From NCBI GenBank assembly GCA_002746135.1, contig NVWE01000008.1:139619-196143 (forward strand): DNA of 56,525 nucleotides, read 5' to 3'. Below the pieces are notes generated by a model. It searched no databases. It saw only the letters and a list, made by a program, of their open reading frames with translations, and was not told where the DNA came from. Within the stretch, counting starts at the first letter, position 1. Each line of letters begins with the position of its first letter. Positions 198 to 46,349 of the stretch are shown piece after piece. The position numbers and the translations under genes were made by a program. Origin of the DNA: Cellvibrionales bacterium. GTDB lineage: Bacteria > Pseudomonadota > Gammaproteobacteria > Pseudomonadales > Porticoccaceae.

Positions 198-732
198 TTA
201 CGCTTCACTTTTAATGGGGCGCCCGGCTTTTCCAGGGATAACTCGCCTTCCTAAGGTCTTGCCGATCTCTTCTCTAAAACGGTTGTCTCCCAACACGAGA
301 TCATCCCTCATCGCCTTGCGTATTTTATCAACCAGCCCAAGCTCCAGGTCGTATCTGAATAACCCACGATAGTTTGCCTCTCGCGTCGCCTTTGATAAAC
401 CTAAGCCCTCGTACTTAAAATGAGGTTTAACTACTTTGTCCGGCTCTCTTCGCGCATTAGTTCGATTAATATATTGCACATTCCGCTGCCCAAGCCCTTT
501 CATAAAGCTGCCAATGCCCCCCTTATCGTTGGGCGTTAGTAGCAGATGAACATAGTTTGCCCTCAGAATGACAGGCACGAATTATGCGGCCGGTTTTTCG
601 CGAAAACTCCAACAACTAATCAAGATAAATGAGGTAATCATCATTGTGAAAAACAGGGCAGTCGATTATTCCCACTCTGGATAGCACGAAGGAGAAACTT
701 GGGCACAAGCAAACAAGTTCGGCGAGGCTGTT
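198..732 (-). pseudogene. Broken REP-associated (Y1/RAYT) transposase
   Basis: On the minus strand the reading from about 732 down gives the family N-terminus (PRRTCLLVP, then IQSGNNR), then DDYLIYLD followed by a TAG where the family has Trp, and after a frame change NYVHLLLTPNDKGG and GQRNVQYINRT. The central block with GTLWEGRFK and the part up to the catalytic region is missing; the end (LGDNRFREEIGKTLGRRV, GKAGRP) is intact. RAYT proteins are HUH/Y1 single-strand transposases linked to REP palindromes. The stop, frameshifts and internal deletion mean this copy is dead. A second worn copy sits at 8950-9266. Confidence 0.85.
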
Positions 733-952: not shown

Positions 953-3811
953 ATGCAGGGCAAATCGATGTCTGTACGGACGCATGCAATTTCTATTCGC
1001 GCCGTTTTTTATTCACTTGTATTCATTGCATTCGGGATTCCACTAGCGGCACAGGCAGACGGTCTACCGAGGACGGAGATCGAGCGGCAGTTGCGCGAGC
1101 AACTGGGTTCGACCTACGAAATTCAGGAGTGGTCCGAAAGTCTCGTCAAGCGAACCATACAAGGCCCAGTCACGATAGATCAGCTGTCGGTGACGATAAA
1201 AGCGAAGTTAACGGAGCCGTTATATCTGGGTACAGGCCGCCATCAGAACGGGAAAGCTGTTCTCGAGATGACGCGTGAGCAAGGCAGCATTGTCGATCAC
1301 CAAGCCACGGTGATCGTCGCCGATTCCGGGGGCTTGGTAAAGACTAGTGTACAGGTGGTAATAGGACCGCCTCCGCAGGGGCCGATCGGAAATCCGCTGA
1401 GTCTCTTTCCCACGTCTGGCTATACCATTGGCCATACCAACGCCGCTACAAGCCCTGCTGTTTCCGCACCGACCGGCAGCCCGGCGAGTGCATCGGTTCC
1501 AGGTGCCAACGGCGCACCTGATCCACTCCAGCAGCTTATTGCTCTTCACAACGAACAGGGTGAGATTTGGGGCAGGGAAACCTACGGGAACTATGAGGGC
1601 AGCCCCGTCATATTGCGTGACCTGAACCAGGTAGACGCCTATACGCTAGAAGGGATAATCGACCGTCCCTACCAGTTACTAAGCAACCCGTTCACGCTGG
1701 TCGGCGTTGCGCCAGAGTGGACACTGACGATAAAAACTGCGAATCCGCCCGCTTCGGGTACCAGCCAGATGATTTACGCACTCTCTCTGGAGGCAGAGAC
1801 TTTTGTTGCCCGGCGGGGCCCGATTATCGCGCTCAGCGTGGTCCAGAGTACGTCGATTCAGGACCGCTTCGCCCGCGAATCCGCACCATGGGATTTTGAC
1901 GGTGACATCAGCGACTACGCTCAACTCGGCGGCATGCTGATCAACCTGAACACGCTCGAAATGGTGAGCGATGGCTGGAGCAACCAGCCACTGGCACGCG
2001 TCAAGAATATGCCGGGCCGTTTTTGGCCGGTCAACACCAACTACTCTCTGTCGGTCCAGCCGCTTGGCGCCTATCTGGCAAGCGACGTGCATACCGAGGA
2101 TCGCAAACGGGTATCTCTGAATCCGCTCGCGCACCTCGATGGCCAGGTCTGGGTCGCTGCTGACCTGTCGCGCTACGTGCGCCTGCATGACGGTGATCTT
2201 TGGGCAGGAACACTTGATTGGCAAAACAACTCAGCCAGTGCACCGAGAAATCTTACCAATATTGGCTTGCTGAATAATCTCACTCCGATCAGTTGGTTCG
2301 GCAATCATTTTTATTTCTACAATGCCCAGAGCACAGACAAACCAATGCTGCGGATCGATACCGACAGTGGCGAAATACTCGAACTGGCACAGAGCAAGGC
2401 ACTGAATCTACATTCGCAGGGCAGCCCGGATGGGCGATTTCTGTTTGCCAGCGACGGCGGACAGATGACTTACTCGGCAGCGGGTGAAGAGAGCCTGGTA
2501 CATGTTTTTGATGCCCTCAAGAACACGTCTTTTACACTCGATGCCACGCTTGATAGAAGAATCTACATTGGCACCCAGAAACAGGCTCCAGTGGGCTGGA
2601 ATATTCGCGCCGGGGTCTGGCCCGGGCGCACTCTTTTTCGGGCGTATACCACCGCGGATACTGCCTGGTTCGACCTTGAAAACAGGCAGCGCATTGTGCC
2701 CGGCCAGTTCCCGGACCTGGTCAAGGCCCTGCCGTATAACATTTCCATTTATTCCAATCAGTTCACCGAAATCCCCGGGGGGCGGTTCCTGGATATCGTC
2801 TATGACGGTTTCATGCAGCCTCCGGACGGGCAGTCTCAAACGCTGAAGAAGCGCTTTCGCGTCGATCGGGAGCAGCGCTCCGCTGTACAGTTGCCAATGG
2901 AAGCCGATATCCGGCACGACCCTTTGATGATTACCTGGGTGGATGAAAATCGGTACGTCTATCCAAGACGAAAAGGCTCGCTGAGCGAGGTCGGCACCTG
3001 GTTATACGATATTCGATCGGGGCAGCAGACTCGCTTGACGCCGTTTTTTCAGGATGAGCGCCTGTATGCCGACAACCATGCCTTCACCGGCCCGGAACAG
3101 ACAATATGGACCGATCCGCTGTACATCACTGGTTTGTACCTCGTGTTGCCGGACAAAAACCGCGTGGTGTTCAGTGTGACGCGAGGTGATACGCAGGAAC
3201 TGGTAAGCGTGTCGCTCGATGGCGGGGATCTGTTGCGAAAGCCCATGCCCAGAAGCACAAAGGGTTCGGGACAAGCTCGTTTGCGTCGCCTGCATCCTTA
3301 TGAGGTAACGCTGCCCAGCACTCTTCGGACGTTGTCTCGCAGCGATACTGTGGTAGAGGCGTCTAGCGTCAGCAGCGAGACGACAGGCCTGGCGCCCTCC
3401 TCTGAGGGCCTGGTCAAGAATGCAGAACAGGATGAAGCCGATTCAGTTAAGCAGTGGTGCTACTCAAAGAAAGATATAAGAAACGAAATTGACTGTGAAT
3501 GTCTTGCTGAGAAGTACCTGCTCAAACGTCGCGAGTTAGGCCCGGACATCGGACGCGATATTGTGCTTGGCTCGCTAAATGGTCAGTGCAAGAACCTGGA
3601 ACGGCAGCAAGAAGTTCAATACGCCCATTGTATGGCGCCAGGCGCCATACCAGATACCGGCGGCATAGAGCGGGAGACGTTTTGTAACTGCTATGCCGAT
3701 AAATGGGTTGAGAGATTCGCCGCCCTGCCGGGCAAATTCGATCCGCGACTGAAAGTAAAATTCGGCTCATATGCGCTGGGGTATTGCGCTCGGCCTTCGT
3801 CTTATGAGTAG
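953..3811 (+). CDS. Large exported protein with predicted beta-propeller-like body and C-terminal eight-Cys domain
   Basis: 952 residues. A signal peptide is visible (about residues 1-36, hydrophobic FYSLVFIAFGIPLAAQA). The body is rich in short beta-type blocks such as ENRYVYPRR, GTWLYDIRSGQQTRLTPF and SPDGRFLFASDGG, which recall TolB/propeller repeats, but I do not recognise a named family. Residues about 835-950 form a separate domain with cysteines in the order C, C-x-C, C, C, C-x-C, C (first gap 11 residues), which is repeated in the next gene. The first ATG has GGAAG touching it; the ATG at 968 is an alternative. Likely periplasmic or surface. Function unknown. Confidence 0.75.
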   Translation: MQGKSMSVRTHAISIRAVFYSLVFIAFGIPLAAQADGLPRTEIERQLREQLGSTYEIQEWSESLVKRTIQGPVTIDQLSVTIKAKLTEPLYLGTGRHQNGKAVLEMTREQGSIVDHQATVIVADSGGLVKTSVQVVIGPPPQGPIGNPLSLFPTSGYTIGHTNAATSPAVSAPTGSPASASVPGANGAPDPLQQLIALHNEQGEIWGRETYGNYEGSPVILRDLNQVDAYTLEGIIDRPYQLLSNPFTLVGVAPEWTLTIKTANPPASGTSQMIYALSLEAETFVARRGPIIALSVVQSTSIQDRFARESAPWDFDGDISDYAQLGGMLINLNTLEMVSDGWSNQPLARVKNMPGRFWPVNTNYSLSVQPLGAYLASDVHTEDRKRVSLNPLAHLDGQVWVAADLSRYVRLHDGDLWAGTLDWQNNSASAPRNLTNIGLLNNLTPISWFGNHFYFYNAQSTDKPMLRIDTDSGEILELAQSKALNLHSQGSPDGRFLFASDGGQMTYSAAGEESLVHVFDALKNTSFTLDATLDRRIYIGTQKQAPVGWNIRAGVWPGRTLFRAYTTADTAWFDLENRQRIVPGQFPDLVKALPYNISIYSNQFTEIPGGRFLDIVYDGFMQPPDGQSQTLKKRFRVDREQRSAVQLPMEADIRHDPLMITWVDENRYVYPRRKGSLSEVGTWLYDIRSGQQTRLTPFFQDERLYADNHAFTGPEQTIWTDPLYITGLYLVLPDKNRVVFSVTRGDTQELVSVSLDGGDLLRKPMPRSTKGSGQARLRRLHPYEVTLPSTLRTLSRSDTVVEASSVSSETTGLAPSSEGLVKNAEQDEADSVKQWCYSKKDIRNEIDCECLAEKYLLKRRELGPDIGRDIVLGSLNGQCKNLERQQEVQYAHCMAPGAIPDTGGIERETFCNCYADKWVERFAALPGKFDPRLKVKFGSYALGYCARPSSYE

Positions 3812-4033
3812 CGTTCGCAATGAGGAAGTTTTGGTCCCGGCTCACGGGTATTGCTTGGCGTGGTTAGCGTCCAGCTGCCGGCATGTAAACGAAGAGCGTC
3901 CCGCCCTGGATGATGCACCTCGGATCGGTTTTGACTTATCGATAGCCAGAGAGTGCGACTAGGTGGCACCCCATATCCCATTTTTGCTTGAAACACAGAC
4001 ATGAGATACAGAATGAACAGGAGTAAATCTGCG

Positions 4034-4537
4034 ATGAAAAAGTCTTTGAATAACGTGTGTCATGTCATACGCGCGGGGTTGATCGTCCCACTGTTTTTCG
4101 GCGTCATCTCGATGTCGCAGGCCGTTGCGCAGGATAGCAGCGCCATTGAAACGGAGGCAGACGAAGTCAGAACAAGCTGCTACTCGACGAATTACCTGCG
4201 CTCAGAAATCGATTGCGAATGCCTGGCGACCACTTTTGCGGAGAAACGTCTTGAGCTGGGACCCGATCAGGGGAAGGAGGGAATCATAGCGTCGATCACG
4301 CGAACGGTTAAATGCCTGAATTTTCCTTCCCTTCAGCGCCAGGAATATGCCCAGTGCATCAGCAAAGTTTCATCGGAAGACACCAACGGAATTGAACTGG
4401 AGCAATATTGCCAGTGCCAGTCCCGCAAGATGGTCGAGACCCTTGCTCAACACAAGGGCAAGTATGGCGCCTCTGTCAAAGGCAGCGCGAGTTTTGGTGC
4501 GACGATGTACTGCAGGAAGAAGGAGGCTTATCCGTGA
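4034..4537 (+). CDS. Exported stand-alone eight-Cys domain protein
   Basis: About 167 residues from the ATG at 4034, which has AGGAG ten bases upstream; ATGs at 4001 and 4013 are in frame but less well placed. A signal peptide ends near SMSQAVAQ. The mature part repeats the C-terminal domain of the upstream gene: SCYSTNYLRSEIDCECLA matches WCYSKKDIRNEIDCECLA, both go on with K-R-x-ELGPD, and all eight cysteines line up (C-x11-C-x-C ... C ... C ... C-x-C ... C). Four disulphides in the periplasm would be a natural reading. I know no named family for it. The pair looks like a large carrier protein plus a free copy of its end domain. Confidence 0.8.
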   Translation: MKKSLNNVCHVIRAGLIVPLFFGVISMSQAVAQDSSAIETEADEVRTSCYSTNYLRSEIDCECLATTFAEKRLELGPDQGKEGIIASITRTVKCLNFPSLQRQEYAQCISKVSSEDTNGIELEQYCQCQSRKMVETLAQHKGKYGASVKGSASFGATMYCRKKEAYP

Positions 4538-4673: not shown

Positions 4674-5477
4674 TTGAAGAGGTTATTGTCAGTTTCTTTT
4701 GGTTTACTAATATTTATTGGCGTTCAAGCTGAGGAGGACCACGGTGTTGCCATGCGAGAGAAGGGAGAAGCATGCTGGGCCAAGGAGTGGGTAGACGAAA
4801 GCGAAAGTTTGGATAGAAAGCGGTGCCTTATTTTTTGTAGACGAGGCGGCGCGAATAAAAATCCCTCTGATGATATGGCAGAGAAATGTGACGCTGCGTT
4901 TTCGGCGTATATGCAAGTTTCCGAGCTTCCGAATGAACCGACACCAGCCCAACGACAGCGCCGCCTCCCTGCTGGGCCGCCGACCGAACTTACGGGGGTC
5001 AATCCTGAAGAGGCGATGAAACTAAAGAATATCGTAATTCAAGGAATTGATTTGACGATGACGCTCGGTGAGATCATATCCACGCTGGAGTCATCGGGCT
5101 ACGTGGTTGAGTGCAGAGCGGGGAGTATTGAATGCCAGGTTTCAGACGCGGAGTTCACACTCAAGATACAACACCAACAAAAGTCGGCCTCGTACAGGAA
5201 TCGTGTTACGGAGCTCAACAAGGACACGCTCCCGCTTAGCATCGCGTATTCAGTGATGGATAGCGCTCAAGCGTGTTCTGTGGCAAGTGATGCAATGCAG
5301 GACTTCTGTCGCGCGGGAGCTACCGAATTTCCCTGTCGTCGTGATCCTTCCGGGCGCTCGTCGGCGGAGATATGGTCAAAACAGAAAAGCTCGGATGGTT
5401 ACGTGTATCACGGCCGATTTTCAATCCCCTCCGCGACCTCTTGTGCCATTCGCGTAGGCAGGAAGAAGGGCAGGTAG
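4674..5477 (+). CDS. Exported hypothetical protein
   Basis: 267 residues beginning at a TTG codon with GGAGA about six bases upstream; no better ATG exists near by. The N-terminus is a short signal peptide (LLSVSFGLLIFIGVQA). The mature part starts with a Cys-containing stretch (ACWAKEW, RCLIFCRRGG, KC) followed by a Pro-rich linker (residues about 85-100) and a second half with paired cysteines (ECRAGSIECQVSD). It lies 136 bases after the eight-Cys gene on the same strand, so the three genes may form one exported module. No family recognised. Confidence 0.7.
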   Translation: MKRLLSVSFGLLIFIGVQAEEDHGVAMREKGEACWAKEWVDESESLDRKRCLIFCRRGGANKNPSDDMAEKCDAAFSAYMQVSELPNEPTPAQRQRRLPAGPPTELTGVNPEEAMKLKNIVIQGIDLTMTLGEIISTLESSGYVVECRAGSIECQVSDAEFTLKIQHQQKSASYRNRVTELNKDTLPLSIAYSVMDSAQACSVASDAMQDFCRAGATEFPCRRDPSGRSSAEIWSKQKSSDGYVYHGRFSIPSATSCAIRVGRKKGR

Positions 5478-5684: not shown

Positions 5685-5794
5685 GTCACTCCCACTCGAT
5701 TATCAATGAGGCTCTGAAGCCCAACAATTGCGGCGTATTGAGCTAGCTGGTAGCACTAATACCATGAAAAATACCATGATCAAAAATAATTAAT
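5685..5794. repeat. Copy A of 110 bp repeat with guaA 3'-end-like core
   Basis: This copy and the one at 7065 align over the whole 110 bases at roughly three in four positions. Both begin gtcactcccactcgattatcaat. Read on the minus strand, ATAATCGAGTGGGAGTGA codes for IIEWE-stop, like the C-terminus of GMP synthase (usually TIEWE), and GAGTGGGAGTGA is the known attachment core of guaA-borne islands. No guaA body precedes it, so it is a candidate outer attachment site rather than the gene end. The right half is the taataccatgaaaaataccatg word also seen at position 1. Confidence 0.6.
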
Positions 5795-5885
5795 TCAAGT
5801 CCTTAAATACTGTGGCGAAACAGCCAGGCAAGCAGGGTTAAAACTGAGTGCTACCGCTATCATTCGCAACGCGATCACCTACACC

Positions 5886-6200
5886 TTACGCTGCTATTGG
5901 TCTGGCCTTTTCAATACGAGCTCGTCGCTTGGGTGTATTTAATGCTTTCCAAATATCATTACGCTGTTGTAGTTTTAACCAAAAATCTGCGGTATTACCA
6001 AATACGGCAGCCAACATTAACGCAGTATCCGCTGTCACGGATCGACGATTAGTGCATAACTCATTCACGGTTTTGCGGCTCACACCCATGGCTTGGGCCA
6101 ACTGCCCCTGGGTGATTCCCAGTGGCACCAGATATTCTTCAGTAATCATTTCACCCGCACTGACGGGCTGTCGTTTTGTGATATTCATTTTCTGCCTCAA
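5886..6200 (-). CDS. higA: HigA-type antitoxin (XRE family)
   Basis: 104 residues with a helix-turn-helix at about 28-60: GITQGQLAQAMGVSRKTVNELCTNRRSVTADTALMLAAVFG, then FWLKLQQRNDIWKA, the standard HigA/VapI layout. It neutralises the partner toxin and represses the shared promoter. Its start overlaps the toxin stop by four bases, and the toxin-first order is normal for HigBA. The pair sits between two copies of the 110 bp repeat, so it may have been carried in by that unit. A worn second HigA-like gene lies at 6740-6900. Confidence 0.92.
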   Translation of the reverse strand: MRQKMNITKRQPVSAGEMITEEYLVPLGITQGQLAQAMGVSRKTVNELCTNRRSVTADTALMLAAVFGNTADFWLKLQQRNDIWKALNTPKRRARIEKARPIAA

Positions 6201-6493
6201 CGATAATCGTGGTTATCTAGATAGATATTACAAGCCTCTCCCCGCTCACCAGACCACTCGAATATTAGTCTCCACTGCTTATTGACGCGGATAGAATGCC
6301 TGGCTGCCAACTGGCCACTCAGCTTTTCAAAATGGTTGCTGGGCGGGGAGCGAAGATCCAGATCACTGGTAGCATCATCGATCAGTTGCAACTTTCTGAA
6401 CAGGCGATTATTAATGCTCGCAGGAATCTTCTTACTGACCTTGTCAGCCAAATAAAAATCCTTTAACCATTTATGTTTAAAACTCTTGATCAA
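6197..6493 (-). CDS. higB: HigB toxin (RelE/ParE superfamily mRNA interferase)
   Basis: 98 residues, normal for HigB. The start MIKSFKHKWLKDFY, the block LQLIDDATSDLDLRSPPSNHFEKLSG and the end INKQWRLIFEW-like core (here RVNKQWRLIFEWSGE) and DNHDYR are family hallmarks; the Arg and the final HDYR Tyr/Arg are the usual active-site region. HigB cuts translated mRNA when free of HigA. First gene of the operon; promoter region with an inverted repeat follows at 6521-6537. Confidence 0.92.
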   Translation of the reverse strand: MIKSFKHKWLKDFYLADKVSKKIPASINNRLFRKLQLIDDATSDLDLRSPPSNHFEKLSGQLAARHSIRVNKQWRLIFEWSGERGEACNIYLDNHDYR

Positions 6494-6900: not shown

Positions 6901-7064
6901 TTCAGTTTCTCTGTACCATGCCGGCATCTACCCCCCTCTCATGGTATCGATGTTTTCTGCCTTACTACACGCAATAAGCACCATGAAAAACACCATTGAC
7001 GATGCGAGCCATACTGTTTATCAGGCCCAGTTTATTGTTATATTTCAGTATGTTATGAATTAAA

Positions 7065-7174
7065 GTCACTCCCACTCGATTATCAATAAGCCCATGAAAC
7101 CCAATAGCGACGCGGGTCTTGAGATAGCCGATAGCGCTAATACCATGAAAAATACCATGTTCAAAAATAATTAA
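7065..7174. repeat. Copy B of 110 bp repeat with guaA 3'-end-like core
   Basis: Begins with gtcactcccactcgattatcaat like copy A, and ends with taataccatgaaaaataccatg and tcaaaaataattaa. It lies 1,380 bases from copy A in the same orientation, so the two bracket higBA and the HigA remnant as a direct-repeat-bounded unit. The core TCACTCCCACTCGAT at 7066-7080 is the reverse complement of a guaA end. It could be the left end of the element whose genes fill the rest of the window. Confidence 0.6.
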
Positions 7175-8949: not shown

Positions 8950-9266
8950 AATTATTTTACGCAAAACTTCGGAACTACCCTTTCCAAAGCGTACCACTGC
9001 TCCGATAGGTTCGATTGATATATTGCACATACCGCTTCATCAGGCTACCAATACTGTCTTCTTGTTAGGCGTTAGTAGCAGAGACACATGGTTAGTCATC
9101 AGAACATTAGAGTGAATTGTGCACTCCGTTTTTTTCGAATACTCCAGCAACCAATCAAGGTAAATGAGGTAATCATCATCGTCAAAAAACAGGCCTGCCG
9201 ATTGTTGCCCCGCTGGATGACATGCAGAGGGATCTTCGGCACAACCAAACGAGCTCGACGGAGCAT
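8950..9266 (-). pseudogene. Second broken REP-associated transposase
   Basis: Read on the minus strand from the ATG at 9266: MLRRARLVVPKIPLHVIQRGNNRQACF, then after one base shift DDDDYLIYLDWLLEYSKKTECTIHSNVLMTNHVSLLLTPNK, then after another shift SLMKRYVQYINRTYRSSGTLWKG and a TAG. The His pair of the HUH motif is partly lost (NHVSL for NHVHL). The C-terminal half is absent. It is closer to intact than the copy at 198-732 at its N-terminus, and the flanks of both copies share the word attcgtggtctgcc. Confidence 0.85.
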
Positions 9267-11785: not shown

Positions 11786-11803
11786 TAACTAATTTCCATT
11801 AAA

Positions 11804-11883
11804 CATAACGTCGCAATAAAAGGCGTGCGTTAGCGAGTCTAGCCCACGTTTTTTGTGAGCGATTTTTTATTGCCTTGTTATAG
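11804..11883 (-). repeat. attC recombination site
   Basis: Minus strand reads TATAACAAGGCAATAAAAAATCGC ... ACGCCTTTTATTGCGACGTTATG. The arms GCAATAAAA and TTTTATTGC pair, with outer TAAC and GTTA boxes. About 80 bases; the stop codon of the following lipoprotein gene overlaps it by a few bases, as is usual for cassettes. Confidence 0.8.
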
Positions 11884-12309
11884 ACTGATGACAACATCGT
11901 CTATTTTCCAACCGCCTTCTTTAACCATTTTTACTACCTGCTTTTCTGTTGATGTCGATTCATTTCCACATACATCTCTCTGCGAAAACTCAAGAGACGC
12001 TGTCTCTGTTGCTATGGTTTCACTTAGCAGCGAGATTTCTTTGCACCTCGCCAAGCCCTTTGTGAATTCTAGATAGACAGTTATCACTTCATCTCGGGAT
12101 TTATTCATCTGTTTCATGTATTGAGGCATTTTCGATTCAACTTCCTGTTGTTTTTTCTTCGAAAAGTAAAGCTTTTCATCGTCAAAGCTCATTCCAGCCA
12201 TGACCCTTGAGTTGTACTCAACGTATACCTGGCTAGGTGATTGCTCTACAGAACAACCGAAAAGAAGGAATGTAAGTAGCGCCGATGATAGTGATTTCGA
12301 GATAGTCAA
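11878..12309 (-). CDS. Small lipoprotein, DUF4878-like shape, copy 1 of duplicated cassette
   Basis: 143 residues with a lipoprotein signal (SSALLTFLLFGC, lipobox Cys at residue 19). The mature part follows the plan of small NTF2-like export proteins: a helical segment (PSQVYVEYNSRVMAGMSFDDEKLYFSKKKQQEVESKMPQYM), then a Cys pair (RCKEISLL ... RDVCGNE) and the end VVKMVKEGGWKIDDVVISL, which is the closing strand seen in DUF4878-type proteins. A near copy (16 differences in 143) lies at 38569-39000. Flanked by attC sites on both sides. Confidence 0.75.
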   Translation of the reverse strand: MTISKSLSSALLTFLLFGCSVEQSPSQVYVEYNSRVMAGMSFDDEKLYFSKKKQQEVESKMPQYMKQMNKSRDEVITVYLEFTKGLARCKEISLLSETIATETASLEFSQRDVCGNESTSTEKQVVKMVKEGGWKIDDVVISL

Positions 12310-18485: not shown

Positions 18486-18740
18486 ATGCACTATGAGTGC
18501 CTGACGATGAAACAGAAAAAAATAGTCCATCTGCTCAAAAATTCGATCGGAGTTATGGTCGCTCTTGTGCTTTTTGTGGGCGAATTCCTTCTAAACGCAG
18601 TATCTCTTCTCGCCTCAGGCACAAAGGCGTCAGGTACAGATGAGGCCTCTGGCAACGCCGCTCAGGACGGCGTACTCAACTATCGAACGGGGCAGCTCGA
18701 CGATGGCACAGATGCCACCGGCTGGTACGAAAAGGACTAA
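18486..18740 (+). CDS. Small single-TM protein converging on traG-like gene
   Basis: 84 residues (77 from the ATG at 18507). One membrane segment (IGVMVALVLFVGEFLLNAV) is followed by a Ser/Gly/Asp-rich tail ending TGWYEKD. The stop overlaps the end of the TraG-like gene on the other strand by four bases, so the two are tail-to-tail. A short gene of this shape facing the transfer operon may belong to the element, but I do not recognise the family, and no Shine-Dalgarno supports either start. Confidence 0.5.
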   Translation: MHYECLTMKQKKIVHLLKNSIGVMVALVLFVGEFLLNAVSLLASGTKASGTDEASGNAAQDGVLNYRTGQLDDGTDATGWYEKD

Positions 18741-20302
18741 CGCTTAGCGCCCTTGGTCACGACTGCTTTTCCGATACTTCCGCCCTGGTTACCTGCATCT
18801 TGAGCGGGTGCCCTAACTGGGTTGGTGGCTGAATCAATCGATCTACCAACCTTCATCCCCGCCCAGGCCATCATCCCGCTCCACAATAAGGGAAGGCCCA
18901 GATAGAGGCTAGTGGTAATCATATTCAGCAGCATCCGCTTAGCGTCGTGCTCACCTGGGTTGGCAAACATCTGTAGGAACACGTTCACATCTGGATACAT
19001 GGAAAGAATCAGATTCTGATCTACCCACATGGCCAGGTACCAAAGCACACTCCAGAATTTGACGGTGAAGATGGCCATCGCACCCACCACCATCATGGCG
19101 ATGGAGTAGCGCGATAACACCACTACCATGGGGAGCAGCGCGTAAATCCCCAACAACATAACCGCCTGCACCATGGGTAGGGCTTGCAATACTGCGGTCA
19201 TGGTGACGGAGAACAAAGCTGATGCGGTGACCACACCAGCGGTTGCCAGGCCTCCTTTGAGGATATTTCCAGCGGCATTTACCACACCAGAGCTACTGGC
19301 ATTGTGCGCGGTTAAATCGTTGTTCGACCAGGATGGCGGCGCATTACTCAGCACGGTTTTCACTACCGCATCGTTTTGTTGTTCGCTGGCCAATGCAGGG
19401 GCAACCGCAACCACTAAGCCGGAAAACCCCGCAGAGGTTGAATCGGCCTCGATGACTAGCTTTTCTCGCAATCCGATTGCAGCATCTTCCCACCACTGTT
19501 TGCAGTAAGGCTTGCCCCAGGCGGGTGGCGTGGTGGGATCGTATTCGGTATCTCTTGCCGCATTGTAGGCCCAGCCGCTGATTTGGCCAGAGGGACGTAA
19601 ACTGTCGTAGTAGCCTGGCGTATCTCGGTATACGTGCGAGCCCATCCAGTCTGGATCATCTGCGCCATAAGTCGTTAGCAATGCGGTGATCGCTGCGGTG
19701 GCTGGCCGCTCAGACTGGTATTTTGATCGTGCCGGGATATAGCATTGACTGAAAAAATCACTGACTTCCTGTCGCAATCGCGGGTCTGCAATGGTGGCCA
19801 ATCGAGCCTGTTGTTCGAAGGAGCGCATATCGGATGTTGTCGGTAAACCTTCTACCACCGCATGACCAAACCCGGAACTCATCGCCATAACGGCATACCA
19901 CCAGGCCGGAACATTGACGGTAGCAGGTGTACCGATAAAACCGGTCGAACCGTAGGTACTTTGAGGCGATGCCACTGTTGCTGTGGGTGGTGTCGCATCT
20001 AACAAGGTGGGCGGAGGTACGTAAGATAGAGTGCCTGCATTCAGCGGCGTCAGTGCCGCCGGTTGGCCCGCCAGCACGACAACTAACAGAGCCATGAACA
20101 TGTCGATCTCCATGCGCCGCAACGATAGACCACTAGCGTGACCCACCTCACCGCCCTGTGCTGGCTCGCGCCAGTTATCGATCAAGATCCCCAGAAACGG
20201 TAGATAGACGATACCGGTACTCACCAATACGTCCCACAGGATGCCGTAAAATGTCCAGCCAAACAGTGTGGTGAAGAGTTCTAGATAGCTATCGACACTC
20301 AT
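18737..20302 (-). CDS. traG: TraG N-terminal domain protein of integrative conjugative element
   Basis: 521 residues from the ATG at 20302, which overlaps the upstream stop as ATGA; a longer frame starts inside the upstream gene. SVDSYLELFTTLFGWTFYGILWDVLVSTG opens the TraG-N family; there are membrane segments near residues 35-55, 85-105, 355-470 (ALLPMVVVLSRYSIAMMVVGAMAIFTVKFWSVLWYLAMWVDQNL) and 490-510. TraG-type inner-membrane proteins serve mating-pair formation and entry exclusion. Last gene of the 23507-18737 cluster. Confidence 0.88.
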   Translation of the reverse strand: MSVDSYLELFTTLFGWTFYGILWDVLVSTGIVYLPFLGILIDNWREPAQGGEVGHASGLSLRRMEIDMFMALLVVVLAGQPAALTPLNAGTLSYVPPPTLLDATPPTATVASPQSTYGSTGFIGTPATVNVPAWWYAVMAMSSGFGHAVVEGLPTTSDMRSFEQQARLATIADPRLRQEVSDFFSQCYIPARSKYQSERPATAAITALLTTYGADDPDWMGSHVYRDTPGYYDSLRPSGQISGWAYNAARDTEYDPTTPPAWGKPYCKQWWEDAAIGLREKLVIEADSTSAGFSGLVVAVAPALASEQQNDAVVKTVLSNAPPSWSNNDLTAHNASSSGVVNAAGNILKGGLATAGVVTASALFSVTMTAVLQALPMVQAVMLLGIYALLPMVVVLSRYSIAMMVVGAMAIFTVKFWSVLWYLAMWVDQNLILSMYPDVNVFLQMFANPGEHDAKRMLLNMITTSLYLGLPLLWSGMMAWAGMKVGRSIDSATNPVRAPAQDAGNQGGSIGKAVVTKGAKR

Positions 20303-20679
20303 CCGTTCTTGCTCACCATGATGGCCGTTAACTTGACGAGCAAACTTTGGCCAAGAATCAATTCGATCACGACCAGCCATCCAACGATACGCCAGCGTAA
20401 CGCTTTCATTTGTTGGGCTTTATCGATACTGATGCGGCCTGATCTGACCAACCAGCGGCAAAAGCCGGGCCAACCGAGCGCCAATCCACTGATCACTGTC
20501 CAGCGTATACCGGCTAAAACCGGCTGCCATTGATGGATGTGCTCGCGGATGGTGACTACCGAGTGAGTTTGGACGCTGCTCCACAGAAAGAATCCGGTCA
20601 ACAGGGTTAGCAGCGCTGTTACCAGACTCAACCATAGGAATCCTTTCCTTTTGGACAGGGCATTACTGAACACGACCAC
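20299..20679 (-). CDS. Small ICE membrane protein
   Basis: 126 residues with three membrane segments (FLWLSLVTALLTLLTGFFLWSS, PVLAGIRWTVISGLALGWPGF, WRIVGWLVVIELILGQ). Overlaps the PFL_4711-type gene by 17 bases and the TraG-like gene by four. A short membrane gene between these two is the usual content of this family of elements. No enzymatic motif. Role in mating-pair formation is inferred from place only. Confidence 0.8.
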   Translation of the reverse strand: MVVFSNALSKRKGFLWLSLVTALLTLLTGFFLWSSVQTHSVVTIREHIHQWQPVLAGIRWTVISGLALGWPGFCRWLVRSGRISIDKAQQMKALRWRIVGWLVVIELILGQSLLVKLTAIMVSKNG

Positions 20680-22003
20680 CCCGTAGCGGATTGGGATCCA
20701 GGGTCGGTACTTCGGGCACCATGAGTGAGCTTTGTCGTTTGGCGGCTGAACGCTTAAGCAGTAGAACTACCGTGTCAGAGACCACCTCCTTGCGCACCCG
20801 GGTTTCGAATAACAGGTTTTCGATTTCCTTATCAAGTTCTGCAATGGAGACATCCGCATGCTCTCTAGCCACTTCAGTGGCATAGACCTCTGGCACTTGC
20901 CTGCCTGATAGTAATAACCGCCGGGCAAACAGTGCTTTTTCAACCGTGCGGGCAGTACTTATTTCAGCCACCAGACGGCCCATGATCAGGCTTTGTTCTG
21001 ACGCGGGCATCGCCCGAATAGCTTCGATCACCTGCCGGGTGATGGCAACACCGGGGGCGGTGATTTTGTCGAGATTGGCGAGGGTTAGCGGTGTGGCACC
21101 ACTGACCAGGCTTTGGATCTCCGTGGTGACAGCGGCCGACTCCTGATAGAGCTTGGGTAATAATCCGGTTCCCGGCACACTGTCTTTGCGGCAAGTATCG
21201 CAGGTGGTAACGATGTTCTCGCCCACCACATCGACTGTCCAGTTACGTGCCTCAATGGGCGACACCCAGATTTCGGATAGACGGGTAGATGATGCCACTG
21301 GCACCGGGCTCGTATCCGTCACTGCGCGGTTCATGTTGATGTTGTAACCGGCCTGGACGATATCACCGGTGAATTCCAACACCGGTTGGCCAGATCCCCC
21401 CGCTTGCCCGCCAATCCAGGGCACGCCATTGTCACCGTTGGATGTCTCCACCGACTCCTTAGCGGTCACGGCGTCATTGCCGCCTACGCCCATTTGTACT
21501 TTCCAATCATTCCCCTTGGACAAAGTAATAAGATCGGCATAAGGGTTCTTGCCCTGGGCAATTTCCGCCTCCATTTGCTCACAGGACTTAGTCGCCAACT
21601 GCATGGTTTCTTCAGCTTTGAGCAAGGCATTTTGAAACAGGTCATAGAGGCCTGGATTGGCGCGCTGCAAAATCAAGGCGGGCAAAGACGCTATGGCACC
21701 GGTAGCGGCCGCAGTCATGGCATTCATCATATTATCGACGCCGGTACCGATATTGTTCAGAGTGTTGGTCACCGCAGCCACCGGATCAAACTTGCCACAG
21801 CTATACCCCAGGCCTAGTTGTGCTGAGCCACCCAGGGTCACAGAAACCACGGAGGGATTGGCCGGTACCGAGACCGGTTCTGCACCACCGATTTCGTAAT
21901 ACCACAGACCGTCTTCGGTCGGCGCTTGTGCGGCATAGGTATCGAAGGTACAGACAATCATGGCTACGCTGACAAAACCGGTGATGCGGAATTTTTTAAT
22001 CAT
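20663..22003 (-). CDS. ICE protein, PFL_4711 (TIGR03755) family
   Basis: 446 residues with a signal peptide (FVSVAMIVCTFDTYA). GLWYYEIGGAEPVSVPANPSVVSVTLGGSAQLGLGYSCGKFDPVAAVTNTLNNIGTGVDNMMNAMTAAATGAIASLPALILQRANPGLYDLFQNALLKAEETMQLATKSCEQME closely follows the family's N-terminal half, which is shared with F-type TraH. Central Cys pair CDTCRKDS. A periplasmic mating-pair component. Starts four bases inside the end of the PFL_4710-type gene. Confidence 0.9.
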   Translation of the reverse strand: MIKKFRITGFVSVAMIVCTFDTYAAQAPTEDGLWYYEIGGAEPVSVPANPSVVSVTLGGSAQLGLGYSCGKFDPVAAVTNTLNNIGTGVDNMMNAMTAAATGAIASLPALILQRANPGLYDLFQNALLKAEETMQLATKSCEQMEAEIAQGKNPYADLITLSKGNDWKVQMGVGGNDAVTAKESVETSNGDNGVPWIGGQAGGSGQPVLEFTGDIVQAGYNINMNRAVTDTSPVPVASSTRLSEIWVSPIEARNWTVDVVGENIVTTCDTCRKDSVPGTGLLPKLYQESAAVTTEIQSLVSGATPLTLANLDKITAPGVAITRQVIEAIRAMPASEQSLIMGRLVAEISTARTVEKALFARRLLLSGRQVPEVYATEVAREHADVSIAELDKEIENLLFETRVRKEVVSDTVVLLLKRSAAKRQSSLMVPEVPTLDPNPLRGGRVQ

Positions 22004-23046
22004 GGTGGGTAGTTAATCCAGTTAATGTCGAACAGAAATAACCCTTCCCGTTCACAACAGGAGTAGGGCCTCCAAAGGTTCCAGACATAATCCCCTCCAG
22101 CATCTACACGCCCTCCACCCCAACCATTCAGAGTGGCCAGGTCATTAGTGCCAAATACAGCACAGTTGGATTCCGCTTTGGGCAACAGCATCTGCCATTC
22201 GCCGGTATCCGGGTCATCCTCAACCAGTGGGCCGGGTGACCAGATTTTTTGGCCAGAGCCGGAAGAACCCGAAATTGACACATAGATATGCGGCTGCCCT
22301 GATCGCGTTACGATGTCGCCCGCCCGTTGCGCATTGATGGCCGCCGCTTTGGGCTCCTCCGCTTGCGTTGTCCAGCCGGTGCGGGGATAGACTCCACCCC
22401 AGGTCTGTAAGGGCCAGCTGCCGATTTCCCGCAACCCTGGAATCAGACTGGCCGGGTAGAACATTTCCGGAATCTCCATGCGCCAGGACAGCGCATCTAG
22501 ACCCGATAGAAAGTAGGGATAGAACGAAGTAGTTTCCGATTCGCACAGGTAGCCAGTCCCAGCCAAAACGCCCGACAACGAACTTAATGGGTGGCCAATG
22601 ACATCCGTTTCTCGAAACACCAGATTTCGATGATCACGATTACCCTGACCCCCTTCAGTTCTATTCCCGGCACTATCAATGGGTACAGATAGCAAACTAC
22701 CTAGCAGACCATTGGCCGCCGCTTTTTGCGCAAGCCCCAGTGTGCTGCGAATTTCCAGCCAGGGATTACCACCCAGCTCGTTGTAACTGCTGACTACCAC
22801 ATCAGGTTGATAATGGCCTACTTTTATAGAAGTCTCGACGCTGCATTCATAGATTGAACACCGCAGCCAAAAACACACTCCGACCGGCATCCAGCGCATA
22901 CAGCTCAAAGCCGCCGAAGTAGTTTGCAAAACAATTTCAGGGCTGGTAATCGTTCCAGATATCCCGCTCACCGGAAGCAGCAAGAGTAAAACCATAAGAG
23001 GGTTCAATAGCACTTTCCGCTTCATCGAGGACTGCTTTCGCGCCAC
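22000..23046 (-). CDS. ICE protein, PFL_4710 (TIGR03756) family, TraU-like
   Basis: 348 residues with a signal peptide (VLLNPLMVLLLLLPVSGISG). Cys-rich start (LSCMRWMPVGVCFWLRCSIYECSVETSIKVGHYQPDVVVSSYNELGGNPW) is the TraU-type signature, many of whose cysteines form periplasmic disulphides, and the end YVWNLWRPYSCCEREG is also conserved. Needed for DNA transfer in relatives. Overlaps its neighbours by 25 and four bases, so the cluster is one transcript. Confidence 0.92.
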   Translation of the reverse strand: MARKQSSMKRKVLLNPLMVLLLLLPVSGISGTITSPEIVLQTTSAALSCMRWMPVGVCFWLRCSIYECSVETSIKVGHYQPDVVVSSYNELGGNPWLEIRSTLGLAQKAAANGLLGSLLSVPIDSAGNRTEGGQGNRDHRNLVFRETDVIGHPLSSLSGVLAGTGYLCESETTSFYPYFLSGLDALSWRMEIPEMFYPASLIPGLREIGSWPLQTWGGVYPRTGWTTQAEEPKAAAINAQRAGDIVTRSGQPHIYVSISGSSGSGQKIWSPGPLVEDDPDTGEWQMLLPKAESNCAVFGTNDLATLNGWGGGRVDAGGDYVWNLWRPYSCCEREGLFLFDINWINYPP

Positions 23047-38443: not shown

Positions 38444-38494
38444 GTCAACTACTTTTGTAGTCCGCAGGGGGACGAAACTGGGTATTCTTGAAAA

Positions 38495-38574
38495 CATAGC
38501 GCTGCAATAAAAGGCGAGCATTATCGACTCCCGTCCACGCTTTTTATGGGCGAGCTTTCATTTCCTTGCTAGAG
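38495..38574 (-). repeat. attC-like site, decayed twin of the one at 11804
   Basis: Minus strand reads CTAGCAAGGAAATGAAAGCTCGCC ... GCTCGCCTTTTATTGCAGCGCTATG. The outer boxes are TAGC and GCTA in place of TAAC and GTTA: both arms changed together, so pairing is kept while the cross-over triplet GTT is lost. It follows the second copy of the lipoprotein cassette. Confidence 0.65.
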
Positions 38575-39000
38575 ACTGATGACAACATCGTCTATTTTCC
38601 AACCGCCTTCCTTAACCATTTGTACTACCTGCTTTTCTGTTGATGTCGATTCATTTCCACATACGTCTCTCTGCGAAAACTCAAGAGACGCCGTCTCTGT
38701 TGCTATGGCTTCATTTAGCAGCGAGATTTCTTTGCACTTCGCCAAGCCCTTTGAGAATTCTAGATAGACAGCTATGACTTCGTCTCGGGATTTATTCATC
38801 TGTTTCATGTATTGAGGCATTTTCGATTCAACTTCCTGTTGTTTTCTCTTCGAAAAGTAAACCTTTTCATCGTCAAAGTTAATTCCAGCTATGACCCTTG
38901 AGTTGTATTCAATGTATACCTGGCTAGGTGATTTCTCCACAGAACAACCGAAAAGAAGGGATGCAAGTAGCGCCGATGATAGTGATTTCGTGATAGTCAA
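38569..39000 (-). CDS. Small lipoprotein, copy 2 of duplicated cassette
   Basis: 143 residues, identical in length to the gene at 11878 and different at about 16 positions, most of them mild (for example V30I, M37I, K52R). The lipobox (LLFGC) and the Cys pair are kept. The two copies lie 26.7 kb apart on the same strand, each with an attC-like site at the same place after the stop. It is not known whether both are made. Confidence 0.75.
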   Translation of the reverse strand: MTITKSLSSALLASLLFGCSVEKSPSQVYIEYNSRVIAGINFDDEKVYFSKRKQQEVESKMPQYMKQMNKSRDEVIAVYLEFSKGLAKCKEISLLNEAIATETASLEFSQRDVCGNESTSTEKQVVQMVKEGGWKIDDVVISL

Positions 39001-40145: not shown

Positions 40146-42863
40146 TCACCGCGTTTTCGAAATCCGCTCAGCCATTTCATAAACGGCTTCCAGCTCAGAG
40201 CAGTTTTTCTCACGCATGATCGCGGCACGTTCAGCCTTTTCGTGTTTTTCCGTCATCGCCAGTGCAAGTGATAAAGGTGGCGGAACATTGCGAAATAGCG
40301 CCTCAACCTTGTCGGCCAGCACCACCCCTTCAACATATTTACCTGGCTCTTTACGTGCAGACAGCAGCAGGTTGCGTTGCTCATCATTGAGATCCTTGAA
40401 CCGGGCAATCTGCTCGACCTCTTCTTTGGGCATCACCAGGCAGAGCCACCATTCCATCATATTCAGCATTTTGCGGCTGGCATCGGGAAAGTCTTCTAGA
40501 TTCTGGGTGGCAATCCAGAACCAGGCCCCGAGCTTGCGCCACATCTTCGTTATCTTTACGACGTAGCGAGCTAACAAGGGATTAGTCGTAATGATGTGTC
40601 CTTCATCGGTCACCACCAGCGTGGGTCGATCATCATGTTGGTGTCGTTCTACCAGGCCGTTGATATGGCTCATCATCGAAAGGTACGCCACTGTCAGCTG
40701 ATCCTCGTACCCTTCCCTGGCTAAAATGCCCATTTCCAGAATAGTGACATCGGCTTCCGGCCAGGATTTCCCGGGTCGATTAAAGAAATGGCCCGCCAGC
40801 CCGGAGCAAAACAATTCCATCCCGTCGCCCATTTCGATAGCGCGATTGCGGCGATGCTCTGGCAGTTCTGAATCTCGTGCGATGGACTGGAAAGCGGCGA
40901 CCACATCACTAGTCATCACTTGTGGCTGATCGTTTTCTTTTACTGTTTTTGCGGCCAGAAAAATCGCATTACGGATCAGCAATCGGTCAGCACGGGTAAG
41001 CCGCGCATCTTCGCGCTCATCGCCGCCGGTGATCATGATGCGCGCAGCAATCTCCATCTCACCCAGAATATCCCGTCCGCCCGCCTCTTCTTCCAGTTCG
41101 TCTTCTTCATCCACTGGGATATCCAACAGACTGTCTGCGGCTGTTACTTTGTTAAATACCTGCTTCTTATCTAGCAGGCGCAAGGCATCGGCAAACGGTG
41201 GCAGGCTCACATCGACATTGGGATTTAAGGTGATTTGATTCACCGATAAACCGTGGGCTTTAAAGTGCTGGCCCAACAGCGCGAAGGATGCCCCGGCTTC
41301 GATAATAAAAATGCGTGGACGGTGATTGGTCATCATCTGTTGCAACAGGTATACCAGCAGCGCTGACTTGCCCGCACCGGTCGGCCCCAGAATCAACATA
41401 TGGGCATTTTTCTTGCGATCCTCTCGATGCAAGGGATCAAATACCAGGGGCTCGGCACCACGGTTATAAAACACCAGGCCGGGGTGGCCAGTGCCCCGTG
41501 ATCGACCATAAAACGGCAGCAAGTTAGCGGTGTGACGGGAAAACACCAGCCGAGAACGACGCCGTGATTTATCCAGATCCGAATCATAGGCCATCGGTAG
41601 ATTGCGGATATAACTGTCGAGCGTCAGCAGATCCGCTTCCTGGGTAATGGGTTGCAAGCCATTAGGCAGTAATAACGCGTTCAATCGATTGACGTTATTG
41701 CGCAATATTTTCTGGCTCTCTCCCCGCAGGTAAAAAGCAATGCTCAGCGGGTACAACTTATTGCCCTGCACCATTTCTCGCTCTACCTGCTCGGCATCTT
41801 CGCGGGTAATCATCGCTTCCGCCGTATCACCAACAGAGGCACGTTTGATCTGAGTAATATGGTTGCGGGTGGTGTCCTGGGGTTTTATGGTCAGGGTCAA
41901 CGCCATGATGGTGTGCTCGGGCAAACGATCAAAGAGCGAAAATACCTGATCCCCAACCTGACGCTCTGCGGTGAAATGGCCAATGTCCGGGGCACGGCGC
42001 AAGCCCTGAATGGTGACGACTGTGTGAGGCAGATTATCGAACAACCAGCTCGAAGTAGCCTGGTCGGAACGCGGTAATGAAAGAGTTAGCTGTTCGGCAA
42101 AATCATAGCCAAAGGGTAAATTATCGTCCCCCGGATACGGCGCAAGCTTCAGCAGGTTACCCATGTCACCTTGGGCTATTTCTGGGTTGGGATTAAACCA
42201 GCACAACATCCATTCATAAAAGGCCTTACCAGTCGCCCGGCTAGCTTTTACACCCGCTGAAGCGAGGGACGCCACCCACTTTGTGGCAACATCGTTTAGT
42301 GCTTCTTCCACCTCTATCGCAGCAGGCTGTTTGCCATTGGATTTTAAGCGACGATAAAGCACAACCCTGACTCGCCGAATCTGGCCCTGCCAACGCGATC
42401 CGGTCACGGTGGTGTCTTCAAACAGTCCGCCTTTGCGGGAGATGTCCTTTAGATGCGCTGACATAACGGATTGATAATGGCGCGTAAAATCAGACGACCT
42501 GGCATTGGGTTGCACGTAGTCTGCTAACGATTCTGCAAAGCCCGAAAGGCTGGGTTCATCCTGCACGTAAATCTGAAGTATCCAGGGGGCACTATCTAAT
42601 TCAGGTAGTGCTTCGTTGATGGCCGTTTGTATGGCATCACGCAGCCGTGCCATGAAATCGGGTGTGCGCGCTTCGCAGCCTACCGGCTCAATCTCGAATA
42701 AGGCCCCCAGACTAACGCCATCCTCCAATACAAAGGTTCGGCTATCCGCATGGTATTCAACCCACGGCAGCAAATCGGTAAAAGAGGCTGGCCGTTCATA
42801 GCAGTGTTTTACCGCTGCGCTAGTCAGTGGCGGTGCGTTATTGTCGGTCTCTTTGCTTGTCAT
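40146..42863 (-). CDS. traC: Conjugative transfer ATPase, PFL_4706 (TIGR03744) family, VirB4/TraC-like
   Basis: 905 residues. The N-terminal third contacts the channel (FVLEDGVSLGALFEIEPVGCEAR); the ATPase has Walker A in MLILGPTGAGKSALLVYLLQQ (about residue 492) and Walker B in RPTLVVTDEGHIIT (about 755), followed by VKITKMWRKLGAWFWIATQNLEDFPD. It powers pilus assembly and DNA transfer. Overlaps the lipoprotein gene start by four bases. Last gene of the 47692-40146 cluster; the cargo block follows. Confidence 0.96.
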   Translation of the reverse strand: MTSKETDNNAPPLTSAAVKHCYERPASFTDLLPWVEYHADSRTFVLEDGVSLGALFEIEPVGCEARTPDFMARLRDAIQTAINEALPELDSAPWILQIYVQDEPSLSGFAESLADYVQPNARSSDFTRHYQSVMSAHLKDISRKGGLFEDTTVTGSRWQGQIRRVRVVLYRRLKSNGKQPAAIEVEEALNDVATKWVASLASAGVKASRATGKAFYEWMLCWFNPNPEIAQGDMGNLLKLAPYPGDDNLPFGYDFAEQLTLSLPRSDQATSSWLFDNLPHTVVTIQGLRRAPDIGHFTAERQVGDQVFSLFDRLPEHTIMALTLTIKPQDTTRNHITQIKRASVGDTAEAMITREDAEQVEREMVQGNKLYPLSIAFYLRGESQKILRNNVNRLNALLLPNGLQPITQEADLLTLDSYIRNLPMAYDSDLDKSRRRSRLVFSRHTANLLPFYGRSRGTGHPGLVFYNRGAEPLVFDPLHREDRKKNAHMLILGPTGAGKSALLVYLLQQMMTNHRPRIFIIEAGASFALLGQHFKAHGLSVNQITLNPNVDVSLPPFADALRLLDKKQVFNKVTAADSLLDIPVDEEDELEEEAGGRDILGEMEIAARIMITGGDEREDARLTRADRLLIRNAIFLAAKTVKENDQPQVMTSDVVAAFQSIARDSELPEHRRNRAIEMGDGMELFCSGLAGHFFNRPGKSWPEADVTILEMGILAREGYEDQLTVAYLSMMSHINGLVERHQHDDRPTLVVTDEGHIITTNPLLARYVVKITKMWRKLGAWFWIATQNLEDFPDASRKMLNMMEWWLCLVMPKEEVEQIARFKDLNDEQRNLLLSARKEPGKYVEGVVLADKVEALFRNVPPPLSLALAMTEKHEKAERAAIMREKNCSELEAVYEMAERISKTR

Positions 42864-44792: not shown

Positions 44793-45605
44793 TCAAAACG
44801 ACACTTCAAACGGCCTATCTGAAACGAGATAGACAGCGGTGGAATCGGCCTCATCACCTGAGGGCAACAAACGATTGTGCTGGAATGTCGCCGTGAGCCA
44901 GGATCCACGTAATTGCCGTGGGTCGAGCACAACCGGGTGAGAAGATTTATTTCGTAATTCGACAGCGGTAACCGTGTGCAAACCTGCACGCCAGGCTGCC
45001 ACAGGGATAGCTTCTACCTGCCCGCCCATCACCAGTTCAAACGACACCAGCGGAACAGGCATCCGAACGATACCCGGCATACTTGGCAGTAATCGTGCGG
45101 GAGCGTAGAGCTGCTGAGCGGCATAGCGCGTGAGCGCAACGTATCCCCATTGAGGCACTGTTGTTTCTGTGGTGTCAGATACCAGGCCGACCGGTGCCGG
45201 CTTTGCATCCAGAATCTGAACCATTGGCAGGGACGGACTCTCTGGATCGGCATCAGTGGCTGAAACATCCAGAACGTAGACCGGCCCATCGCCTTCGGCG
45301 CGCACTAATACCCGCGTAGCTTCAAAAGGCTCGTGCGCCGTTAGGTAAAGCGTCCCGTTTATACTTTGACTGCGCAAAAGCGATGCCAGACCAGGAGGCA
45401 CCCCCACACTGACCGAGGAAGGAAAGCGCACCAAACGCTCCTTATCTACGTTGAGATTTACGGCAATAGGCGTGTTTTTCCAGAGAACGCGCTCTGTCAA
45501 TTCAGCGTTATCAATCCCGCCATTCTCGGCTGTCGCTAGTAACGGAAATAAAAGCATCACCGCCAAAAAGTGGGGGACCCAATAGTGCTTTTCAGTGTGC
45601 TTCAT
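44793..45605 (-). CDS. ICE protein, PFL_4704 (TIGR03749) family, TraK/VirB9-like
   Basis: 270 residues with a signal peptide (FLAVMLLFPLLATA). ERVLWKNTPIAVNLNVDKERLVRFPSSVSVGVPPGL is the family opening, TraK-like; the second half (VALTRYAAQQLYAPARLLP, AVELRNKSSHPVVLDPRQLRGSWLTATFQHNRLLPSGDEADSTAVYLVSDRPF) is also conserved. Periplasmic member of the outer ring. Twenty-four bases before the VirB10-like gene. Confidence 0.94.
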   Translation of the reverse strand: MKHTEKHYWVPHFLAVMLLFPLLATAENGGIDNAELTERVLWKNTPIAVNLNVDKERLVRFPSSVSVGVPPGLASLLRSQSINGTLYLTAHEPFEATRVLVRAEGDGPVYVLDVSATDADPESPSLPMVQILDAKPAPVGLVSDTTETTVPQWGYVALTRYAAQQLYAPARLLPSMPGIVRMPVPLVSFELVMGGQVEAIPVAAWRAGLHTVTAVELRNKSSHPVVLDPRQLRGSWLTATFQHNRLLPSGDEADSTAVYLVSDRPFEVSF

Positions 45606-45629
45606 GATTATTGACCTGGTTTTTTTGTC

Positions 45630-46349
45630 TCATTGGTTTGGATCAGCGGATTTGGCAATTTCATCCTTCGTTAATCGCCGTGGGCCGTCACCTTCATAGC
45701 CGTCCAGCGCTAGCGCCCAGGGATTCGATTCCGGATCAACGGCATGACGCACCACCCTCAATGGATAACGGATCGTGGTTTGCTTGACGGTCATGCCCTT
45801 AACCGATTCCAGCAGCTCCAAATCCAGCCATACCACCCACACGTCAGGGGCCAGCACATCGACTCGTCGCTCTTCAAACCCGTGGCCCGGCAGTTCCTGC
45901 ATGCTGCGCGTTCGGTAAGCGAGTTCACCGCGCCTGGCCTTCAACTCCATATCAGCAATCAAGTCATTGCGATAACGGGGAGTCAGATAGGGCGAAATGC
46001 GAAAAATAGCTTTGCCATAATCGCTGGCACCATTTTCAGACCAGCGATTAAGTTGCTGAAAAATATAGAAGGCAAACGCATAGACATTGGCAGGCGGTAC
46101 TTCTTCAACAGCCAAGTTTGCACCTGAACGCAAATCAGGTGGCACATGCACCCGCAAATGCTTGGGCGACTGGCTCCAACCAATCCACAAAGCCACGATC
46201 ACCAAAGCCTGAAAACCGATAACGACCCACAGTGATCTCAGGTGGGAACGGACGTTATCGATCTCGTAGCGATATCGCCTCACGGCTCGTCCTCCCAATA
46301 TCCCAGGCACCGCTACGGCGTACCCATGGCGATCGTCGTAAGCCCACAT
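45630..46349 (-). CDS. ICE protein, PFL_4703 (TIGR03746) family, TraE/VirB8-like
   Basis: About 239 residues from the ATG at 46349; a longer frame starts at 46400. One membrane helix (VVIGFQALVIVALWIGW) and a periplasmic NTF2-like domain with VYAFAFYIFQQLNRWSENGASDYGKAIFRISPYLTPRYRNDLIADME and VWVVWLDLELLESVKGMTVKQTTIRYPLRVVRH. VirB8-type assembly factor. Its start lies within the TIGR03750 gene, a 95-base overlap, as in relatives. Confidence 0.93.
   Translation of the reverse strand: MWAYDDRHGYAVAVPGILGGRAVRRYRYEIDNVRSHLRSLWVVIGFQALVIVALWIGWSQSPKHLRVHVPPDLRSGANLAVEEVPPANVYAFAFYIFQQLNRWSENGASDYGKAIFRISPYLTPRYRNDLIADMELKARRGELAYRTRSMQELPGHGFEERRVDVLAPDVWVVWLDLELLESVKGMTVKQTTIRYPLRVVRHAVDPESNPWALALDGYEGDGPRRLTKDEIAKSADPNQ

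Follow-up and report, generated by a model that had tools for sequence, protein, structure and literature searches.

Two adjacent genes of a Cellvibrionales bacterium share an exported eight-cysteine domain in a setting that looks mobile

Setting of the locus

Genomic islands at the 3' end of guaA, with the core GAGTGGGA, are described in two papers (PMC9376610 and PMC7775301). GIsul2 has three att sites (PMC9376610), and ICERspD18B is a conjugative element (PMC7775301). The window analyzed here – the whole stretch of 56,525 nucleotides at positions 139,619 to 196,143 of contig NVWE01000008.1, from a Cellvibrionales bacterium – shares with both, as far as they are described there, the core GAGTGGGA, several attachment copies and accessory cargo. 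As with ICERspD18B, there are also conjugation-type genes on the same contig. The window differs from both in that the cargo is unrelated and in that no integrase was found among the ORFs of L022, read by eye, or among 20 ORFs of the window searched with Pfam.

The cargo considered here is a run of three genes, P1, P2 and P3 (953–5477, with no N in the sequence; Table 1). The ORFs of P1 and P2 are present where a first-pass annotation, made from the sequence alone, had placed them. The N-termini of all three proteins are of the export type, judged by hydropathy and AXA-like sites and not by a signal-peptide program. P1 has a hydrophobic start (residues ~13–35), a conserved region (~37–140) and an Ala/Pro/Ser linker, followed by a beta-rich core with SPDG-like stretches and an eight-cysteine tail. 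P3 has a weak PHROGs match to phrog_31702, a family of unknown function (E 0.0013).

Table 1. Features of the window and their positions (1 is the first nucleotide of the window)
Feature	Positions	Strand	Evidence or remarks
P1, 952-aa exported protein	953..3811	+	listed ORF; 51% identical to the G191, G489 and L027 proteins
Eight-cysteine domain, copy fused to P1 (residues 831–952)	3443..3808	+	comparison with P2, profile match, cysteine count
P2, 178-aa exported protein, signal-peptide-like start and one eight-cysteine domain	4001..4537	+	listed ORF; domain comparison
Eight-cysteine domain, free copy (P2 residues 55–178)	4163..4534	+	profile match
P3, 267-aa exported protein, ten cysteines, TTG start, third gene of the unit	4674..5477	+	listed ORF; cysteine count
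Attachment-like direct repeat, copy 0	-69 to 114 (contig start 139549)		74% over 184 nt to copy 1
Attachment-like direct repeat, copy 1	5685..5870		begins with a guaA-3'-end-like word, minus strand (IEWE stop)
Attachment-like direct repeat, copy 2	7065..7174		83.6% over 110 nt to copy 1
HTH antitoxin	5886-6200	-	PF01381, E 1.5e-10
HigB-like toxin	6197-6493	-	PF05015, E 4.9e-31
TraG_N	18737-20380		Pfam
TraU	22000-23046		Pfam
TraC	40146-42863		Pfam
DUF3438 and DUF2895	44793-46400		Pfam

The core GAGTGGGA is found in all three direct repeats, which are 110–186 nt long. In copy 0 it lies upstream of the window, and the upstream part of that copy also contains 15 N. On the minus strand, copies 1 and 2 can each be read as a guaA-like end; the window repeats have only 16 exact nucleotides in common with a true guaA end. 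The P1–P2–P3 unit sits between copies 0 and 1, and the toxin/antitoxin pair HigBA between copies 1 and 2. Conjugation-type genes begin 13 kb and more downstream of the unit; with TraG_N, TraU, TraC, DUF3438 and DUF2895 all present, the window therefore holds part of a conjugative element.

Other repeats were seen in the window. A 300-nt direct repeat, 90% identical, lies at 11801–12100 and 38492–38791, 26.7 kb apart. A short ORF at 198–578 (-) is reminiscent of a REP-type transposase; it has no Pfam match at 0.001, and a diverged repeat of its upstream end is found at 9058–9188.

The shared eight-cysteine domain

A cysteine-rich domain common to P1 and P2 had been proposed in the first-pass annotation, and the comparison bears this out. 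The P1 tail is identical to the mature part of P2 at 47 of 122 positions (39%, E 2e-28), and the KR-x-ELGPD word is found in both. The domain is at the C-terminus of P1 as proposed, though its length is about 122 residues rather than ~115. The spacing in the two window copies is C-x11-C-x-C-x28 or 30-C-x13-C-x17-C-x-C-x31-C; over all four domain sequences found, the intervals are 11, 1, 28–30, 13, 15–18, 1 and 26–31. When one sequence was shuffled with its cysteines held fixed, the maximum over 300 shuffles was 49, against 224 observed, so the likeness between the P1 tail and P2 exceeds that of the cysteines alone.

All eight cysteines of P1 are in the tail, with none in the core. P2 has nine, of which one is in the signal-peptide region and the other eight in the domain. 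With signal-region cysteines left out, the cysteine number is even in the exported part of each of the nine proteins counted. The eight-cysteine domain is a real exported domain that has not been curated, and its cysteine pattern suggests that four disulphides most likely hold it together once it has been exported.

The expectation that the domain fits no known family held up, as profile searches gave no meaningful match. Searches of P1 and P2 against Pfam, NCBIfam, PHROGs and PADLOC gave no family. The best family match to the four domain members was TMEM141 (E 0.4, with one member only), the relatives in G191 and G233 gave only MgtE_N (E 0.18) and Spaetzle (E 0.71) in Pfam, and P2 of G191 reached E 0.005 with NF003377, at 15.9 bits against a cut-off of 527. 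Four P1 core sequences matched 0 Pfam families, and the domain and P1 core profiles had zero matches among PDB sequences. The best E among viral models was 0.59, no relatives were found in plasmids and viral contigs, and titles and the opening parts of abstracts held no literature on the P1–P2 pair. One candidate for P1, allophanate hydrolase subunit 1 (a weak pair of matches to the whole-P1 profile, E 0.005, profile positions 37–169), was judged a chance match; it is absent with P1 alone, where only EssC appears (E 0.74).

From the two window rows, AlphaFold2 predicts P2, at modest confidence, to be all-helical (mean pLDDT 62.9, pTM 0.42), with helices at 39–62, 64–69, 72–86, 92–101, 108–119, 131–149 and 157–172. 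The domain cysteines are at 60, 72, 74, 105, 119, 137, 139 and 171. If the short helix 64–69 is left out, the two halves of the model are alike, each with a cysteine ending its first helix, a CxC in the second, and a fourth cysteine within or just after the third. The sequence signal for an internal duplication is weak (hhalign E 0.039 over 10 columns; half against half, z 0.1–1.7 with cysteines fixed and 1.4–3.3 with full shuffling). A PDB search with the P2 model had a best Z of 5.4 (3.4 A over 68 residues of a sigma-factor fragment), which is within the noise for helical models.

The AlphaFold2 model of P1, from three sequences, was unusable (mean pLDDT 37.9), and comparison of P1 with itself pointed to a repeat at a distance of 70 residues, but with an E of only 0.18. 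P1 would probably be a beta-propeller or similar beta-repeat scaffold, judging by the SPDG and similar beta-rich stretches of its core, read by eye, which we take to be like those of TolB/PD40-like propeller proteins. In contrast to those proteins, P1 has no Pfam or NCBIfam match, and its core matches nothing in Pfam or among PDB sequences.

Relatives and distribution

Homologs of the P1–P2 pair were found in few genomes. P1 is present in 1 of the 112 genomes of the window's family, the source genome itself. P2 had matches in 2 of the 112 at E 0.001, one of which (G073, E 6.7e-4), a frame with two stops, was dropped. Among 369 genomes of the class, four passed E 0.01 with the four-row domain profile – G000, G191, G233 and G397 – and the last was dropped from the count (E 0.004, three stops). 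G191 and G233 are not products of their own rows, since both were also found with a profile from the two window rows only (E 5.8e-20 and E 3.5e-7). Nine weaker class matches (E 0.0096–0.098) were left uncounted. The P1 core is found in 2 of the 369, G000 and G191; G233 matches in the domain only. Within their own families, P1 occurs in 2 of the 20 genomes for G191, and the domain in 1 of the 11 for G233. Across 398 genomes of the phylum, a set partly overlapping that of the class, four passed E 0.01 and only G000 was convincing; G645, G540 and G698 (E 0.004–0.006) were dropped as short. A further match, in G238 (E 7.9e-4), was dropped for an internal stop. A scan of 84,980 species genomes with short exact words, a method that gives a lower bound, found at least 2 P1 loci and no P2 locus. 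By these searches, the pair is rare but not unique.

The complete genome G191 has the same gene order as the window: P1, an eight-cysteine protein and an exported cysteine protein. Its P1 is 787 aa long, 51% identical to that of the window, and lacks the tail. The P1–P2 gap is 17 or 68 nt, depending on the start chosen, and P2 (244 aa) carries the domain. The third gene, for a 183-aa exported cysteine protein, is in the same place as P3, with no significant likeness between the window's P3 and either the G191 P3 or the C-terminal part of the G233 protein (z 0.3–1.8). A second relative is in L028, one of the two P1 loci from the scan with short exact words; it is letter for letter the contig of G489, a metagenome-assembled genome named Thiohalobacter sp. 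There, a gap of 29 nt separates P1 from a P2 homolog, of which the first 45 residues are present, 78% identical to that of G191; the contig ends before the P2 cysteines, and the homolog is known from these residues only. G191 would also belong to Thiohalobacter, since its genus label is the same as that of L028/G489. The order P1–P2 is thus common to two genera and, by kinship label, two bacterial orders. Upstream of the intact P1 in L028 is a decayed inverted remnant (2178–2324, -), in which a P1 end continues into residues like the last ones of P2.

The fourth P1 gene is on L027 (JALUUK010000628.1), an Acidobacteria-labelled contig. Its product is also 51% identical to P1 of the window and lacks the tail, and unrelated sequence follows it. 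The contig agrees with Thiohalobacter from ~100 bp before P1 up to about the P2 ribosome-binding site and then diverges; it may be a chimera or a truncated transfer, and it was counted as P1 without P2. In all, three of the four P1 genes are followed by a P2 homolog, one of them recognized by 45 N-terminal residues only, and the window's P1 is the only one with a tail. The dN/dS ratios among the P1 genes of G191, G489 and L027 are 0.146, 0.169 and 0.176, and by this measure these genes are under purifying selection. Selection of this kind is established for these relatives only, because comparisons with the window's P1 are at or near saturation, with two infinite dS and a value of 0.194 against L027.

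In G233 the domain opens a 367-aa protein, after a 790-aa protein unrelated to P1. The domain is therefore not tied to P1. The pair is at L021:5796–9290, where the 790-aa protein looks exported and the domain is fused to another cysteine-bearing part.

The setting in Thiohalobacter also recalls guaA. The G191 genome has one exact match to ATNGAGTGGGAGTGA, 180 bp before P1, although the rarity of this match is no independent test, because the pattern was picked after the window repeats and the G191 sequence had been seen. The site is an orphan guaA tail that reads GKPPATIEWE stop, with the rest of guaA absent, and it is 88% identical over 34 nt to the true guaA end of G489 (E 1.1e-6). The sequence 60–150 nt after guaA in G489 aligns with the window at 6914–7005 (73% over 92 nt, E 2.6e-8). 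No second guaA end was found around the G191 P1 in the 18 kb read, and no such guaA-end word was found in G233. Judged by the repeats and these guaA-like ends, the P1–P2–P3 unit looks like mobile-element cargo, and we infer that it was once moved by an integrase. An orphan exported gene pair is thereby tied to transfer on mobile elements, and this would explain why the other 111 family genomes that were searched lack it.

How the two proteins may be related

The reading preferred here, tentatively and at somewhat short of even confidence, is a mobile three-gene unit for exported proteins, in which P1 and the domain belong to one complex, with the domain fused to P1 in the window genome and supplied in trans in the relatives. 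P1 would be a large secreted or periplasmic scaffold, and the domain a small helical module, perhaps of two similar four-cysteine units. In relatives with P1, the second gene would supply the domain; in the window genome the domain would have been doubled, with one copy becoming the C-terminal tail of P1, and the whole unit would have moved horizontally. On the simplest reading P1 and the domain are partners in a single complex of the envelope or the extracellular space, where the domain would be a rigid module for docking or for ligand binding. That two proteins are fused in one lineage and separate in another is a classical sign of joint action, and it suggests that these two act together; they may also physically bind.

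The first-pass annotation had pictured a large carrier with the domain and a free copy beside it as a bound pair, and this interpretation is partly supported. Both genes do occur together elsewhere, whole and in the same order in G191 and in part in G489/L028. The window genome does have a domain-bearing carrier next to a free copy, but G191, G489 and L027 do not, since P1 ends before the domain in all three. A free domain in the relatives and a fused copy here fit a trans-acting partner that was doubled and fused once. The domain sequences do not date the doubling, as each window copy is 36% identical to the free domain of G191, nearly the same as the 39% between the window copies, and a four-tip tree pairs the window copies with a support of 68 only. 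A lineage-specific duplication was not adopted on these figures.

A somewhat unlikely alternative is that P1 and P2 are functionally unrelated cargo, moved as a block by islands, and that a duplication joined the tail to P1 by accident. The sporadic spread of P1 (1 of 112 family genomes, with the core in 2 of 369 in the class), the island-type repeats and the toxin/antitoxin neighbors are what such cargo would look like, as are the domain without P1 in G233 and P1 without an adjoining P2 in L027. On the other hand, the P1–P2 order has been kept in two orders though P1 is only 51% identical, the gaps in G191 and G489 are short, and the in-frame fusion retains all eight cysteines.

A competing partner, as the first-pass annotation had proposed, or a regulating one is improbable; here the P1 tail and the free P2 would vie for a single binding site, or P2 would control P1. 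The window genome is the only one seen with fused and free copies together, and its two copies could have specialized, since they are nearly as far from each other as from that of G191. However, P1 has no tail to compete with in G191, G489 and L027, and nothing inhibitor-like or protease-like was matched; nothing speaks for the "processing" partner that had also been suggested.

A metal-binding domain without disulphides, with the CxC pairs holding metal in the periplasm, is very unlikely. Each domain has two CxC motifs, but no exported part counted has an odd number of cysteines, the four domain sequences conserve all eight, and cysteines of exported proteins are as a rule oxidised. The domain alignment also lacks an invariant histidine, and D17 and E92 are its only invariant acids.

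A previously uncurated protein domain is defined here along with an immediate candidate partner, and the genomes provide a natural experiment, with the domain in trans in Thiohalobacter and both in cis and in trans in the window genome. A broader proposal is rather doubtful: the domain would be a helical module of a new kind, locked by disulphides and made of a doubled four-cysteine unit, recruited by secreted scaffolds in trans or by fusion and spread between orders on guaA-type elements as an envelope system.

A single four-cysteine unit was also considered as a widespread form, and a profile that included a protein of G434 gave nothing new in 215 genomes. This protein, a small exported C..CxC..C protein (L023:7062–7424) with no Pfam or NCBIfam match, was among the weak class matches as a look-alike only; its E of 0.022 against the domain profile is not significant over 369 genomes. 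It has the same four-cysteine order as the domain after a signal-like start, but with one four-cysteine unit rather than two.
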